Part shown: in pieces, positions 26,567 through 32,267 of the stretch
Position numbering within the stretch: position 1 is the first letter of the stretch
Layout: each line of letters begins with the position of its first letter
Assembly (NCBI RefSeq): GCF_010500615.1
Contig: NZ_JAAGNX010000002.1
Location: forward strand, 858,990 to 922,989
DNA length: 64,000 nucleotides
Source: Oceanipulchritudo coccoides
Lineage (GTDB): Bacteria; Verrucomicrobiota; Verrucomicrobiia; Opitutales; Oceanipulchritudinaceae
Direction: 5' to 3'
Position numbers and translations under genes: made by a program
Notes under the pieces: model-generated
What the model saw: the letters and a program-made list of their open reading frames with translations, nothing else
Databases searched by the model: none
Told to the model about the DNA's origin: nothing

Positions 26567-27472
26567 TTAGTCCTTCGTTGGAATTTCCTTTGGGGGACTC
26601 GTCGGAGGAACATTGCTTGGCGGTGGGCCTGGCGGAGGTCCCGGCGGAGGGCCTGGAGGAGGTCCGCTCGGCGGTTTCATATTGGGGGGAAGCGGGGGAG
26701 GGGACCCGAGGCCTTTCGGCGGAGTCGGGGCTTCCATGATCTCAAGCAGCTCCACGTCAAAAATGAGGGCATCACCAGGCTCGATAAGACGGCCAGGCTG
26801 TGACGGGCGATCGCCATAACCAAGCTCGGAAGGAATATAGAGCTTAATCTTTCCACCCTTCTTGAGGAGTTGGAGACCTTCCGAGAAACCAGGAACGACA
26901 CGATTCACCATGAATTCCGCATTTTCATTTGCATCAAATTCACGACCATCGATGAGGACACCGCGGTAGTTGACTTTGACGCGATCGGTTTCCTTCGGGG
27001 CTTCACCTTCACCTGCCTCAATCAGCTCATAATACAAGCCGCTTTCGGTCTTCAGTATGCCTTCCTTTTCATCCAGGGAAGCAAAAAAGGCAGCTGCCTC
27101 AGCTTTGTTTTCCTCAGCAACCAACTTGGCGCGCTCTTGTTCCGCTTGCTGGAACTCCTGCATTTTGGCCATGTAGATTTGCTGGGCTTGGGCAATCGCT
27201 TCCTTAAAGCCTTCCGGTTCAGTCTCTCCATTGGCGGCGAGGCGCATCCCATCGAAGATCTGTTCCATTTCTTCGTCCGAGAACCCGATGTTCAGTCGGA
27301 GTTGGGAGGCCATTGCGTATCCCATGGACTTGAATGCTGCAGAGGTGTCAACAGGTGCCGGTGCCGGAGCTGGGGCAACTGCTTCCTCAGCAGAAACAGG
27401 AGTCCATGCGACTAGGGAGACTACCGAAATCGCCAGGAGCGAAGTGGGTCGCATATACGATTTTTTCATCAT
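26567..27472 (-). CDS. secreted FKBP-type peptidyl-prolyl isomerase with Gly-Pro tail
   Basis: Periplasmic proline isomerase or chaperone. From the tandem ATGs at 27467-27472 the product of about 300 residues has a signal peptide (MKKSYMRPTSLLAISVVSLV, cleavage near VSA-EE), an N-terminal FkpA/Mip-like dimerisation helix region, a FKBP domain (LKTESGLYYELI to FDVELLEIM) and a C-terminal tail of four GPPP repeats. FKBP active-site segments such as VPGFSEGLQLLKKGGKI and PSELGYGDR are intact. An open frame upstream to 27556 runs through a terminator and is rejected. Confidence 0.9.
   Translation of the reverse strand: MMKKSYMRPTSLLAISVVSLVAWTPVSAEEAVAPAPAPAPVDTSAAFKSMGYAMASQLRLNIGFSDEEMEQIFDGMRLAANGETEPEGFKEAIAQAQQIYMAKMQEFQQAEQERAKLVAEENKAEAAAFFASLDEKEGILKTESGLYYELIEAGEGEAPKETDRVKVNYRGVLIDGREFDANENAEFMVNRVVPGFSEGLQLLKKGGKIKLYIPSELGYGDRPSQPGRLIEPGDALIFDVELLEIMEAPTPPKGLGSPPPLPPNMKPPSGPPPGPPPGPPPGPPPSNVPPTSPPKEIPTKD
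26618..26665 (-). repeat. four 12-bp tandem repeats coding GPPP
   Basis: Four adjacent 12-base units, each coding Gly-Pro-Pro-Pro, make up the end of the FKBP gene. The units differ at third codon positions, so the repeat is old rather than a recent slippage. The polyproline tail should be extended and could bind an SH3-like or envelope partner. Confidence 0.8.
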
Positions 27473-27540
27473 AGAAGAAAAAGAGATATCGCTCCTTTTC
27501 GCGGGGTCAATTCCTGATTCAAAATCGATGCAGATTAAAG

Positions 27541-27571
27541 AAAAGCCACCCCCCAATGGGAGGTGGCTTTT
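27541..27571 (-). terminator. strong hairpin between the FKBP gene and the sigma operon
   Basis: AAAAGCCACC pairs with GGTGGCTTTT, with an inner CCC/GGG helix and AAT loop. On the minus strand the tail reads TTTTCTTTAATC, so it would end transcripts coming from the sigma factor operon about 200 bases upstream. The plus-strand tail has only four T, so bidirectional action is weaker. Confidence 0.65.
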
Positions 27572-27773
27572 GGGCGTGATGCTGTTAAATCATGCCCTAT
27601 CTCTGTCGCTGTCTTAACTCAGGATCCTTTCGGACCCATTGGCCTATCGCTTGCCAAAATTTCTGTGCATAGAATGCCCAAAATTTAGCATTTCGAGCAA
27701 GGGGAAAGCACTTGTTTTTAATACTTTTTTTACAAGATCACAAGATTTGTAAAAAAACTTAACCCATTGTAAT
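27572..27773. other. non-coding gap with clustered repeats
   Basis: The gap of about 300 bases between the FKBP start and the 203-residue gene holds no credible gene. It contains the terminator hairpin, a second hairpin (GGGCGTGAT with ATCATGCCC, 27573-27597), two copies of CCAAAATTT 24 bases apart (27654 and 27678), and an A/T inverted repeat at 27725. A small RNA or a long 3' untranslated region of the sigma operon is possible. Confidence 0.5.
27725..27757. repeat. A/T inverted repeat after the 203-residue gene
   Basis: TTTTTTTACAA and TTGTAAAAAAA form a perfect 11-base inverted repeat around an 11-base centre. The centre contains part of a direct repeat ACAAGAT-C-ACAAGAT. It starts 17 bases past the minus-strand stop at 27774. 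The T-run is on the wrong side for a minus-strand terminator. Confidence 0.55.
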
Positions 27774-28385
27774 TCAGGGAGTCGCGGGTTGGCCCGAACG
27801 CTTACCGAGCCCAGCCTTTTTCGCCTCCAGAGCCTCTTTCATCTCCTTGAAGACTTCTTCGCGTTTCTCGACAAAATCGGTGATCCATTCTCTAAGGAGC
27901 TTGGATTGATCAGGGGCGGACAAATCAGCCAAGGCGCTTCGTTTCCGGTCTCGATCCACTTTCCTTTCGGCGAGCCAGAACTGGGAAACATCCGGTTTGT
28001 GGATCCCGGGAACGAGTCGGCACAAAGTCTCAATTTCCTGACGCAGCTCATCCGTCATTTGCGTCACCTGTGAAATTCTGATTCGCATGGCTTCCCGCTC
28101 CGCTTCAGACATTTTCTCGATAAATTCGACGGTCTGCCGGAGCTTCTGCAACTTCTCCGGGCTGAGGGACAGCAGTTCCTCCAGCTGTTTGAGCTGTGCG
28201 ATCAACTCAGACGGATCCGGCAGGTTGGGTGGGGGCTGCGGGGGCGGATTGTTGAGTATTTCCGGTGGAAGGGGTGGTGGAGCTTGCAGGGGGGCGGGTT
28301 TCTCTTGAGCGATCGAGGCGAGGCCCGATCCCAAGAGGGCAGCAGAGAGAATCAAGGAAGGAATTTTAAGGAAAGGGCACCCCAT
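27774..28385 (-). CDS. secreted helical protein of the first ECF sigma operon
   Basis: Not recognised by name. The 203-residue product has a signal peptide (about 1-26, cleavage near SIA-QEK), a proline-rich linker (APPPLPPEILNNPPPQPPP) and a long helical charged part (residues 58-195). That architecture recalls the periplasmic metal or misfolding sensors of the CnrX/Spy kind. It follows the anti-sigma gene by five bases and is probably its periplasmic partner; this is inference from order and shape. Confidence 0.75.
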   Translation of the reverse strand: MGCPFLKIPSLILSAALLGSGLASIAQEKPAPLQAPPPLPPEILNNPPPQPPPNLPDPSELIAQLKQLEELLSLSPEKLQKLRQTVEFIEKMSEAEREAMRIRISQVTQMTDELRQEIETLCRLVPGIHKPDVSQFWLAERKVDRDRKRSALADLSAPDQSKLLREWITDFVEKREEVFKEMKEALEAKKAGLGKRSGQPATP

Positions 28386-28390
28386 GAGTA

Positions 28391-28879
28391 TTACTCAAAA
28401 AGGAAAGCCAGATCATCGACCGACTGCAAGCGAGACATGTCCGAGGCGCCTTGCAAATTGGCCGCCAAGGCGAAGATCCGGGTAATTTCCGGGTCGTCGG
28501 AAAGCGCTGCAGGGCTCGAAATGACGACTTGTGCCTCTTGAGGCATTGGCGCTTGCGGGGCCTTGTTCTGAAAGCTGAAGAAGGCGATCCCGAGGACTAA
28601 TGCCGCAGCCACAGGGGTGAGCCACTGGAACCAGATGATCTTTTCCTGATCCTGCTTTGGTTCGATTCGTGCCCGGACCTTTGCCACCATCTGTGGATCC
28701 CCGAGTGTTGGATCCTGGGCAAACAATGAGTCGATCCTTTGCTCAAACTCCGTATCCTGCGCCGCAATTCTGTTACGGATACGGCTCAGCATGCCGGGCC
28801 TGGCTTGGATTCGGCTTTCCGAGAGCCACTGCTCAAAGGCCTGCAAATGCTGTGAATGATCTTCGGGTGCTTGTTTCAT
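28391..28879 (-). CDS. putative membrane anti-sigma factor
   Basis: The 162-residue product has a cytoplasmic helical N-terminus (1-80), one membrane segment at about residues 84-104 (FQWLTPVAAALVLGIAFFSF) and a short periplasmic domain. No zinc-binding HxxxCxxC motif is present. Its position 13 bases after an ECF sigma gene on the same strand argues for an anti-sigma factor, but the N-terminus does not clearly match a named anti-sigma domain. Confidence 0.7.
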   Translation of the reverse strand: MKQAPEDHSQHLQAFEQWLSESRIQARPGMLSRIRNRIAAQDTEFEQRIDSLFAQDPTLGDPQMVAKVRARIEPKQDQEKIIWFQWLTPVAAALVLGIAFFSFQNKAPQAPMPQEAQVVISSPAALSDDPEITRIFALAANLQGASDMSRLQSVDDLAFLFE

Positions 28880-28892
28880 TGAATCTACTTGG

Positions 28893-29447
28893 TTAAACCA
28901 GATCTTTAAGCTCTTGTTTCAAAAATTGTCGTGCCCTGAAAATCCAGGTCTTCACGGCGCTCTCATTGGCTTCCATGACATTGGCAATTTCCTGATAGCT
29001 GAGCTCCTGTTGCTTCAGAAGGAGAATCGCCGTCCGCTGCTTTTCCGGAAGCTTGTGCAGGACCTGCTCAAAGGCTTCCTCGAGCTCGGAATAGCGCCGA
29101 TCCTCCCTGTCGCTGGAGATTGCGTGCAGGTCTGCGGGATCCCATGATTCAAGGGGCTTGGCCTGGCTTCGACGGTATTCGTTGATGAGGAGCCGCCTCG
29201 CAATTTGGAAAAGGTAGGTACTGAATTTGGCCCGCGGTTCATATTTCGGGGCAGCCCGGTAGACGCGGACAAAGACCATCTGGGTCAGGTCTTCCGATTG
29301 CTCGTAGGATTTGAGCGAGCGGTAGAAGAAGTTGATCAACGAGGATTGCCAGCGTTCGACAATCTGATCGAAAGCTGCCTCGTTCCCATCCCGGAGTCTT
29401 AGCATCAACTCCACGCTCGGGTCGTCCTTTGGAGGATTAGCCGCCAT
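28893..29447 (-). CDS. RNA polymerase ECF sigma factor (first module)
   Basis: Alternative sigma factor. The 184-residue product has sigma region 2 (about residues 25-95, with DLTQMVFVRVYRAAPKYEP and FSTYLFQIARRLLINEYRR) and region 4 (about 120-180, LPEKQRTAILLLKQQELSYQ then EIANVMEANESAVKT). No region 3. It heads a three-gene operon with the anti-sigma and secreted protein, and is divergent from the second module. Confidence 0.93.
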   Translation of the reverse strand: MAANPPKDDPSVELMLRLRDGNEAAFDQIVERWQSSLINFFYRSLKSYEQSEDLTQMVFVRVYRAAPKYEPRAKFSTYLFQIARRLLINEYRRSQAKPLESWDPADLHAISSDREDRRYSELEEAFEQVLHKLPEKQRTAILLLKQQELSYQEIANVMEANESAVKTWIFRARQFLKQELKDLV

Positions 29448-29525
29448 TAAGGGTATCGGGGAAGGTCATACCCAATAAGAACGCTATCGATCAGTGAATG
29501 TTTCAAGGGAAAAGGTAATGTCGGG

Positions 29526-29569
29526 CAAATCCCTTGTTCGGATTTGCGATAAGTCTCCCTCGGGATTTG
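29526..29569. promoter_or_regulatory. repeated GGATTTG motifs in the divergent sigma promoter region
   Basis: The 151-base gap between the two divergent operons holds CAAATCC (29526-29532), GGATTTG (29540-29546) and GGATTTG (29563-29569). The first two form an 8-base perfect inverted repeat (GCAAATCC, 7-base spacer, GGATTTGC); the last two repeat directly 23 bases apart. A wider pair, TCGGGC/GCCCGA (29521 and 29572), encloses them. This layout fits an operator or sigma recognition site. Confidence 0.5.
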
Positions 29570-29598
29570 ACGCCCGATTGTCGGATGCCTAACTTGCG

Positions 29599-30048
29599 AT
29601 GGTTAATTATTCCTACTCTTGTCCAGTGAAGTTTGTTATTCAAGTCAGTCTATTGCTTCTGGGCGCTGGCCTGCTAGCTGGTGTGCATGGGTTGATTGTG
29701 GGGAGCAGCGGGTCTTCCCATGCCCTGGCAAAGCACGGACTGGAAGTTGATGAAGCGATTGGGTTGGGGTCTGCCTTATGGGTCGACGCCCGCTCGCCTG
29801 AGGCATTTGCAATTGGGCATTATCCGGGGGCCTACAATATCAACATGGATAACTGGATGGAGGGGGTAGGCCTTCTGCTGGAAGCCTGGGATCCCGGGGA
29901 GAGCATTATTGTTTATTGTGATGGCAGCAGCTGCTCTGCCAGCCGGGAGCTGGCTTACCGGATACGTTCCGAGCTGGGTCTGGAGCCCGCCTATTGGCTA
30001 AGAGGCGGGTGGGAAGCGCTTGAAAGCGAGAAAGGCGTGCTGGAATGA
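29599..30048 (+). CDS. membrane-anchored rhodanese-domain protein
   Basis: Single rhodanese fold (residues about 50-145) after an N-terminal membrane segment (about 12-33), so the domain probably faces the periplasm. The active loop CDGSSCSAS has Cys107 in the nucleophile position and a second Cys112 in the same loop. Substrate is unknown: sulfur carrier, redox relay or disulfide work are all possible. ATGA overlap with the next gene shows coupling. Confidence 0.85.
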   Translation: MVNYSYSCPVKFVIQVSLLLLGAGLLAGVHGLIVGSSGSSHALAKHGLEVDEAIGLGSALWVDARSPEAFAIGHYPGAYNINMDNWMEGVGLLLEAWDPGESIIVYCDGSSCSASRELAYRIRSELGLEPAYWLRGGWEALESEKGVLE

Positions 30049-30452
30049 GCCGCTTGATCTGGGTGGTGCAGGGCTTCATCAGCCTGTTTTTCTTCTTTTC
30101 GGGCATCTCGAAGCTGCTTGATCCGGCGGCCTTTTCAATGGCCATCGAGCGGTACCAACTCGTCGGTGGAACGCTGTCCTGGGCGATAGCCCTTTGGCTT
30201 CCCTGGTTGGAATGCATGTTGGCTGCCACCCTCTGGAGCAGGAATTGGCGACTCCCTTCCCTTGCCCTCCTGATTGGCATGATGGGGGTTTTTCAAATTG
30301 CCCTGCTAAGTGCCTTGCTTCGCGGGCTGGATATCTCGTGTGGCTGCTTTGGCACGGAGGTCGAGTCCGGGGTGTTGTTTTCGTTCATTCGTAATTTTTT
30401 CCTTCTTGGGGCAATATTACTGGTCATGCTGAGAAGGCCTTCGACAACATGA
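30045..30452 (+). CDS. MauE/DoxX-like membrane protein
   Basis: The 135-residue product has four membrane segments and the MauE-family motif CGCFG (Cys99 and Cys101 in DISCGCFGTEVE). MauE-like proteins support disulfide or cofactor formation in the envelope, so with the upstream rhodanese a thiol-redox role is likely. Both ends overlap neighbours by four bases (ATGA), linking it to the rhodanese and to the following sigma factor gene. Confidence 0.85.
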   Translation: MSRLIWVVQGFISLFFFFSGISKLLDPAAFSMAIERYQLVGGTLSWAIALWLPWLECMLAATLWSRNWRLPSLALLIGMMGVFQIALLSALLRGLDISCGCFGTEVESGVLFSFIRNFFLLGAILLVMLRRPSTT

Positions 30453-31036
30453 AAACCCCGGGTGGTTTCAGTCCTGAAGATGAGGCAGCTTCCGACTATC
30501 TGGGAGGAATGGCTAATCGTGATGTGGAATGTTTGAAGGCCCTTTATACGCTGTATCATCGACCTTTACTGTCTTTGATCCATTCGGTCATGGGCGACTC
30601 GGGTGGAGCTGAGGAAATCCTTCAGGATGTGTTTGTCCGGGCTTACCGGGATGCGGGACGTTATGACTCAGATCTGGGAGCGCCCTTTCCGTGGTTGGCG
30701 ACAATTGCCAGGCGCATGGCAATCGACTGGCTTCGCAAAAAACAGAGACGTCCGGGAATTGTCGATCTTGAGAGGGAACAACCCGAGCGGGATGCTGACA
30801 AAATCTTTGCAGCGAATGAAAACCATCCACATCAGCAAATGGAGCTTCGCCTCATTGCGGAGCATCTTGAGAGGTTACCCGAGGGCCAGGGACAGGTTCT
30901 CCGGATGGCTTTCCTGCAGGGGCATACACATAGTGAAATTGCCCAAATTCTGGGCAAACCATTGGGAACGGTTAAATCCGATTTGCGTCGGGGCCTTTTG
31001 CAGCTGAGAAAAGACTACTTGGGAGAGAATGATTAA
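30449..31036 (+). CDS. RNA polymerase ECF sigma factor (second module)
   Basis: Alternative sigma factor. The 195-residue product has region 2 (about residues 30-105, with AEEILQDVFVRAYRDAGRY and WLATIARRMAIDWLRKKQR) and region 4 (about 135-190, RLPEGQGQVLRMAFLQGHTH and IGTVKSDLRRGLLQLR-like end). It overlaps mauE upstream and the anti-sigma gene downstream by eight bases. Fused into one operon with thiol-redox genes. Confidence 0.93.
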   Translation: MKTPGGFSPEDEAASDYLGGMANRDVECLKALYTLYHRPLLSLIHSVMGDSGGAEEILQDVFVRAYRDAGRYDSDLGAPFPWLATIARRMAIDWLRKKQRRPGIVDLEREQPERDADKIFAANENHPHQQMELRLIAEHLERLPEGQGQVLRMAFLQGHTHSEIAQILGKPLGTVKSDLRRGLLQLRKDYLGEND

Positions 31037-32267
31037 CCAGCAAACAGAGGAAAGGGCTTCACTCTACGTGCTCGACCTGCTTGAGGGAGAGGACCGGGTC
31101 CTGTTTGAAAAGGAGCTTAAGGAATCCGCTGAGCTCCAGCAGTTGGTGAATGAATTGTCCGCAGCACTTTATGACCCTTTAATGAAAGTCAGGACACCTG
31201 TCCGGCCTGATCTCCTCGAAAAGGTTGTCCGCAAGATTTCCGTGAAGGACGACACCGTTGTATCTTCCACCAAAAGCGACCCCGCTCCAGTTCCCTGGAC
31301 CTATATCTGGGCCGTGGCCGCGTTGATTCTCCTTGGAATGAATTTGCTTCTTTTGTTCCTTGTCAGGGATCAGGCCGCGATTCGTCCTGATGATCTTGTC
31401 GCTGGCGGTGAGCGTGACTACACGGATCCAGCAGGCGAGATCTCCGGTGAGTTGGGATTATCAGAAGAGGAGCGCACGATTCTTGAAGCACGGATTGCCC
31501 GGCTTGAACAGGATCTGGCCTCCAGCGAGGAGAACGCCGACTTGTACCTGAGTGAACTGGAGAAAGCGGGAGAGAGGGAGTCTGAGGTCAGTCGCTACAA
31601 TGCGGAATGGCAGCAGGAATACGCCCGTCTGGCAGCGCGAATTCTGCCATTTTTTGAGCCAAATGACGGGCTTGGGCGGTTCACGGTGATTGAAATGGTG
31701 GATAGTGAAGCCTTTGCAAATGATCTTCCAAGGCGTGGGTTTGCTGATCTGGCGGGCCGTTTCCTGACAGGGGAAGGTAACATTGCCGGTGTCGGGACCG
31801 AGGAATTTGTGGGGCCAGTCGTCGAAGGGGCAGGTATCCTCTCCGCCACCGCGGATCCCACTCAACCCGGGCTAACCCCGATTGCCAGGGGGACCCCCAC
31901 AGTAATGGCGGACAGTCCGGCGCTTCCCGACACTGCGATGGGTCCTGAAGCACCCCAGGCTGCTGTGCTGAACGAGGAACCCACAGGATTTACCGTTTGG
32001 AGAGATGACGAGCAGAAAGGCTTCCTCGATTTATACAACTTACCCGAATTGGATGAAGGACAAGAGGCTTACTTGTGGGTGCGTTCGAGTGAACTGGATC
32101 CCTATGTCCCGGTTGGTGTGGTTCCACAGCTGGATAACGGAACAGGCTCCATCTTCTATTCAGTTGACGAGCCGAATTTTACCCCGACGGAAATCCTCAT
32201 TACTTCTGAGGAAGCAGGGGCGGCCGGATCAGAGCCTGGGAATACGGTTATCTTGCGGGGTCCCTGA
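31029..32267 (+). CDS. RskA-like membrane anti-sigma factor
   Basis: The 412-residue product has a cytoplasmic N-terminal helical domain (1-85) with no zinc motif, one membrane segment (about 92-112), a coiled coil (about 150-205) and a C-terminal anti-sigma-K type periplasmic domain (about 330-412, with FTVWRDDEQKGFLDLYNLPE and AYLWVR). A Pro/Thr-rich linker precedes that domain. It overlaps the sigma gene, so it most likely holds that sigma factor inactive; the signal may be read by the periplasmic part. Confidence 0.85.
   Translation: MINQQTEERASLYVLDLLEGEDRVLFEKELKESAELQQLVNELSAALYDPLMKVRTPVRPDLLEKVVRKISVKDDTVVSSTKSDPAPVPWTYIWAVAALILLGMNLLLLFLVRDQAAIRPDDLVAGGERDYTDPAGEISGELGLSEEERTILEARIARLEQDLASSEENADLYLSELEKAGERESEVSRYNAEWQQEYARLAARILPFFEPNDGLGRFTVIEMVDSEAFANDLPRRGFADLAGRFLTGEGNIAGVGTEEFVGPVVEGAGILSATADPTQPGLTPIARGTPTVMADSPALPDTAMGPEAPQAAVLNEEPTGFTVWRDDEQKGFLDLYNLPELDEGQEAYLWVRSSELDPYVPVGVVPQLDNGTGSIFYSVDEPNFTPTEILITSEEAGAAGSEPGNTVILRGP

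Follow-up and report, generated by a model that had tools for sequence, protein, structure and literature searches.

A rhodanese-MauE pair ahead of an ECF sigma/anti-sigma switch in Oceanipulchritudo coccoides and its genus: a possible thiol-redox output of an envelope response

A stretch of 64,000 nucleotides from Oceanipulchritudo coccoides (contig NZ_JAAGNX010000002.1; hereafter the window, whose positions are used throughout) contains two ECF sigma modules that lie back-to-back and are transcribed away from each other. The right operon, on the + strand, encodes a membrane-anchored rhodanese (29599..30048, called from Pfam and from its position among the open reading frames), the DoxX-like four-helix membrane protein MauE (PF07291; 30045..30452, Pfam), an ECF sigma factor with regions 2 and 4, here SigR (30449..31036, Pfam and NCBIfam), and an RskA-like anti-sigma factor, AntiR (31029..32267, called from a Pfam match below cut-off, a structural model, and hydropathy). 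Every open reading frame of this four-gene chain was found at the place given in a preliminary description of the locus, with the overlaps claimed there, namely 4 bases (ATGA) between rhodanese and MauE, 4 bases (ATGA) between MauE and SigR, and 8 bases between SigR and AntiR. Two further species of the genus show near-identical overlaps, so these are not a matter of chance. Comparison with relatives points to an alternative start for the rhodanese, the GTG at 29626 instead of the ATG at 29599, which may be the true one.

The left module, on the - strand, encodes the ECF sigma factor SigL (28893..29447, Pfam), a putative anti-sigma factor with one transmembrane (TM) segment, AntiL (28391..28879), and a periplasmic helical protein (27774..28385) with a weak DUF3106 match just under the cut-off. 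AntiL has no good family match, its best anti-sigma match being at E 0.023. The module is present and divergent as had been described, but most of it lies beyond the interval 28893-32267 covered by that description, and it extends to a gene for an exported FKBP-type peptidyl-prolyl isomerase (26567..27472, Pfam), which is conserved at its end.

The divergent intergenic region (29448..29598) carries on the - strand, before sigL, the box CCTTGAAAC-N-CGTTCT, which is kept as CCTTGMAA-N-CGTTYT in most of the genus (four genomes compared: the window genome, G000, and G175, G139, and G177). This box is a candidate ECF promoter, which would autoregulate the left module only. Comparison of the intergenic regions within the genus identified no promoter upstream of the rhodanese gene. 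CTTGCCA, which is located 36-38 bases before the first gene in G175, G139, and G177, was considered as the promoter of the right operon and was too weak to call; the window has CTTGCGA instead at that spacing, and only with the GTG start. An inverted repeat (GCAAATCC/GGATTTGC) at 29510-29570 in the same region is absent from the relatives.

Between the genes for the helical protein and the FKBP, an element at 27538..27655 (- strand) includes the invariant sequence GTTAAGACAGCGACAGAGA, shows compensatory changes in its base pairs, and ends in a terminator hairpin (MFE z -4.3). Within the window's family, 12 genomes carry it in a single copy, which in 8 of the 12 adjoins the helical-protein and FKBP genes. 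Only five weak matches were obtained outside the family, and Rfam gave no match. Judging from conservation and structure, this element is a candidate for a new, structured non-coding small RNA. Control of the candidate by SigL was unsupported, the upstream boxes being too mixed among the relatives.

The rhodanese (PF00581, 52.5 bits) has a single TM segment (about 16-34) and an active loop of the CX4C type, C107-D-G-S-S-C112; C107 is present in 57 of the 58 relatives in the alignment, and so is C112 (57 of 58). MauE matches PF07291 with 92.8 bits against a curated cut-off of 27, and its C99-G-C101 motif, invariant in the alignment, is located between long predicted helices 3 and 4. Judging from hydropathy and charges, both the CGC loop of MauE and the rhodanese domain are predicted to lie outside the cytoplasm, in the periplasm. 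The link to the thiol or sulfur state of the envelope suggested in the preliminary description stands insofar as both added proteins carry near-invariant, predicted periplasmic cysteine pairs; that the sigma factor answers through them was not supported.

The AlphaFold model of MauE (pLDDT 91.6) finds its best solved match in NACHO/TMEM35A (Z 13.9, 2.2 A over 116 residues), a DoxX-like protein, and its likeness to VKOR (Z 6.6) and gamma-carboxylase was set aside as a common four-helix arrangement. The neighbors of MauE in the window are the rhodanese and sigma genes, and no mau gene (e.g., mauD) adjoins it, so it was not classed as the MauE of methylamine dehydrogenase maturation. The spacing UxxxxU is given for TsoB, a rhodanese/DsbD fusion-like selenoprotein, and DUF1573 has a selenoprotein form with UGC (PMC13188914), which supports redox roles of the CX4C and CGC motifs.

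SigR (195 aa) and SigL (184 aa) both match Sigma70_r2 and r4 above cut-off and are thus ECF (group IV) sigma factors. The NCBIfam model nearest to SigR is SigK, at 111.1 bits against a cut-off of 226, which leaves SigR outside the SigK family. According to PMC7509140, 94% of ECF18 members and 56% of those in ECF19 retain the cysteine pair responsible for the redox sensitivity of SigK-RskA. This pair is absent from SigR, ruling out a SigK-type redox switch; its sole cysteine, C28, is located before region 2 and is not shared with G175, G139, and G177. AntiR matches RskA_C with 20.1 bits, below the curated cut-off of 29.4. Its model (mean pLDDT 66.9) shows four cytoplasmic helices, a TM segment at 91-117, a long periplasmic helix at 146-209 (coiled coil), and a C-terminal beta domain at 319-411, and its layout of helices, one TM segment, and an outer RskA_C-like domain is taken from this model and hydropathy, with the RskA_C match below cut-off. 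The N-terminal part resembles the anti-sigma factor RslA (3hug) with a Foldseek probability of 0.97 but a poor E of 0.3. AntiR and AntiL contain no cysteine at all, and the HxxxCxxC motif of zinc-binding anti-sigma factors (ZAS) is accordingly absent from both; direct thiol sensing by AntiR is ruled out by this absence of cysteines.

A cross-genome search found the order in more than one strain. In three of the four genus genomes (G000, G175, and G139), rhodanese-MauE-SigR-AntiR lies back-to-back with SigL-AntiL-helical protein-FKBP; rhodanese and MauE overlap by 4 bases, MauE and SigR by 4, 8, and 4 bases, and SigR and AntiR by 8 bases. Identity to the AntiR of the window is 39% and 33% in the other two pair-bearing species and reaches 50% in G177. 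Because this tight order coexists with an AntiR identity of 33-39%, the arrangement is old in the genus. In G177, SigL-AntiL-helical protein-FKBP and SigR-AntiR are in place, and a beta-barrel open reading frame fills the slot between SigR and SigL. This beta-barrel-like outer-membrane gene (L102 10740-11654, - strand), located before SigR, was called by eye from its sequence. The slot itself is sequenced, and the replacement of rhodanese-MauE by another gene is thus read directly. No homologous rhodanese was found in the G177 genome, and MauE gave two weak matches, which are unlinked and without a neighboring rhodanese; because the assembly is 90% complete with 6% contamination, absence of the rhodanese from the rest of this genome is likely, not certain. 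In G084, which belongs to another genus of the same family, SigR-AntiR and SigL-AntiL-helical protein-FKBP lie back-to-back with nothing in between, and the rhodanese-MauE pair is on a separate contig from the sigma modules. The SigR-AntiR relatives in G147, G130, and G021 are also without rhodanese or MauE. The suggestion that the left module is a partner of the right one received no support as to function; the left module is a separate ECF module, which adjoins the right one also where rhodanese-MauE is absent.

MauE matches were found in 69 of the 177 genomes of the order, and the MauE scan of genome contigs gave only two distant relatives. Of approximately 60 loci examined in the order, nearly all have a rhodanese gene immediately upstream of MauE, as do 38 of 60 loci from elsewhere in the phylum. 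No ECF sigma gene was found beside these 60 MauE loci outside the order, and among the relatives rhodanese-MauE is almost always without a sigma factor. A DUF1573 gene, upstream or downstream, is usually the third member of the group. DUF1573, CX4C rhodanese, and MauE form a widespread conserved triad in the phylum (L037, L061, L229, and L232 among many), whose three cysteine motifs (CGC, CX4C, and CGC) are predicted to be periplasmic, and our literature search did not find a paper naming it. The only DUF1573 gene of the window genome (G000:C2:468329) is located away from the operon; it was considered as a co-transferred partner and dropped, as it has no clear nearest donor.

In a tree of concatenated rhodanese-MauE sequences (56 loci, 302 columns), the pair of the genus groups with family f21 (support 100/99), apart from the other seven members of its own family, and the constraint to a one-family clade was rejected (AU p 0.0014). 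Because of this grouping and this rejection, the pair was probably acquired horizontally by the genus. In the f21 loci of that clade, the gene next after MauE is DUF1573, in the position occupied by SigR in the window. The tree together with the f21 gene order would fit insertion of a transferred pair between the two sigma modules, the tree alone giving no direction of transfer.

A second attachment of this kind was found in family f8, in five genomes of which DUF1573-rhodanese-MauE is followed by a different ECF sigma factor and a different anti-sigma factor (clusters L061, L063, L075, L079, and L082; a remnant is found in L053). Beyond its membrane segment, the f8 anti-sigma factor carries an invariant cysteine pair, C175 and C189 (CX13C), and the f8 clusters may be better candidates for redox sensing than the module of the window. 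The f8-type anti-sigma factor also occurs in 62 of 156 genomes of the order at other places, away from rhodanese-MauE. G048, an f8 genome, keeps DUF1573-rhodanese-MauE, beside which no sigma gene was found, and its anti-sigma gene is a remnant with an internal stop. From about 13 ECF genes, roughly 3000 genes (an approximate figure), and 15-40 lineages, about 0.05-0.13 ECF attachments are expected by chance, with a probability of two or more of about 0.001-0.008, in an estimate that is rough and after-the-fact; on this rough estimate, two separate ECF attachments downstream of rhodanese-MauE exceed chance.

The nearest known parallels are doxX operons under ECF control in Neisseria and Haemophilus, together with the DoxX-SseA-SodA complex. 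RpoE2 of H. influenzae drives the doxX operon after hypochlorite, and the same doxX cluster belongs to the Neisseria SigE regulon, so that, as in the window, an envelope-stress-type ECF sigma factor is linked to a DoxX-like membrane protein (PMC7907618). However, the doxX cluster of these bacteria is sigma-controlled but located outside the sigma operon and without rhodanese, whereas the window pair is inside the operon; the Haemophilus anti-sigma factor is a small cytoplasmic protein, whereas AntiR is membrane-bound; and msrAB is a target there, with none adjacent in the window (PMC7907618). DoxX of M. tuberculosis acts together with the sulfurtransferase SseA in a DoxX-SseA-SodA membrane oxidoreductase complex (Nambi et al., 2015, as cited in PMC7907618). 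The complex resembles the window in pairing a DoxX-like membrane protein with a sulfurtransferase. SseA is cytosolic; in contrast, the window rhodanese is membrane-anchored and predicted to be periplasmic, its gene overlaps that of MauE, and no SodA gene is found among the genes adjacent to the operon. SigK-RskA of M. tuberculosis provides the closest named sigma model and a similar anti-sigma layout, but SigR falls under the SigK cut-off (111 vs 226 bits), the RskA_C match is also sub-cut-off, and the SigK redox cysteine pair is absent. TsoB (NF045694) shares a redox pair of the same spacing (UxxxxU, CX4C here) and a membrane thiol protein, while here the genes are separate, with cysteines only and MauE in place of DsbD, and the match is weak (E 0.0025). 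Our literature search found no paper naming a rhodanese-MauE-ECF sigma-anti-sigma module, and none with rhodanese, MauE, and a sigma factor; MauE with rhodanese gave one irrelevant paper. The earlier claim that the module is unnamed is thus fair but narrow, applying to a genus-level operon and a second case in another family.

We propose, at about an even chance of being right, that an older, self-contained envelope ECF switch, SigR-AntiR, has received a periplasmic thiol-redox pair as an output, not as a sensor. A CX4C rhodanese and a CGC MauE, which may act as a thiol-redox or sulfur-transfer pair, would have been inserted before SigR-AntiR in one genus, probably after horizontal transfer of the pair. 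SigR would be held at the membrane by AntiR until an envelope signal frees it, a signal that would not act via AntiR cysteines because AntiR has none; release would most likely occur by proteolysis, by analogy with other one-TM anti-sigma factors. Freed SigR would transcribe its own operon, so that rhodanese-MauE rises with the switch and, as its output, would repair or re-set the thiol/persulfide state of envelope proteins; the direction in which electrons or sulfur would flow is likewise something that we infer. Because no promoter was shown before the rhodanese gene, autoregulation by SigR and its control of rhodanese-MauE are presumptive. The two-way separability of sigma module and pair, the pair's foreign affinity, and the cysteine-free AntiR favor reading the pair as an output, and the doxX parallels (RpoE2, the SigE regulon, and DoxX-SseA) point in that direction too (PMC7907618). 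Against this reading, the long persistence of the tight order across three diverged species would be just as compatible with modulation of the switch by the pair, and the rhodanese could be missing merely from the G177 assembly, though the slot was sequenced.

Plain co-transcription, in which a housekeeping promoter would serve all four genes and the pair was inserted at a convenient promoter with no functional link, is possible, though on the unlikely side. It agrees with the slot before SigR, which varies by species (rhodanese-MauE, a beta-barrel gene, or nothing), and with the large number of ECF genes (14 sigma-70 region 2 matches in the window genome), but it accounts poorly for near-identical overlaps despite large divergence and for two separate ECF attachments, given the rough, after-the-fact probability above.

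We consider it doubtful that rhodanese-MauE is instead a sensor arm, which would pass the periplasmic thiol/persulfide state to AntiR and make SigR a sulfur- or redox-responsive sigma factor, as the preliminary description had it. The tight translational coupling kept in three species, the near-invariant CX4C and CGC pairs, and the separate f8 attachment, whose anti-sigma factor has the invariant CX13C, would suit a sensor. This redox-sensing interpretation is nevertheless weakened: SigR-AntiR persists without the pair beside it in G177 and G084, the pair occurs without a sigma factor in nearly all relatives, AntiR has no cysteine, and SigR has no SigK-type redox pair. Moreover, the f8-type anti-sigma factor is common in the order at places without rhodanese-MauE beside it, and G048 retains DUF1573-rhodanese-MauE with its anti-sigma remnant and no sigma gene found. 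Quite improbable, in our judgment, is the stronger proposal that a periplasmic rhodanese-MauE relay, as a redox or persulfide sensor, gates the cysteine-free anti-sigma factor and that redox-gated ECF switches of this kind arose in the order two or more times, by joining of the pair to different sigma/anti-sigma pairs. An assembly or gene-calling artefact has a negligible chance, since three separate genomes share the order and the proteins are conserved; nothing was found in its favor.

If the pair were a sensor after all, it would constitute a new route feeding sulfur redox state into transcription. The genus provides a natural comparison, with the pair in three species and without it in one, for asking whether partners of this kind are sensors for an ECF sigma factor or serve it. 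The locus shows how a widespread uncharacterised periplasmic thiol module, DUF1573, CX4C rhodanese, and MauE, may come under envelope-stress control.
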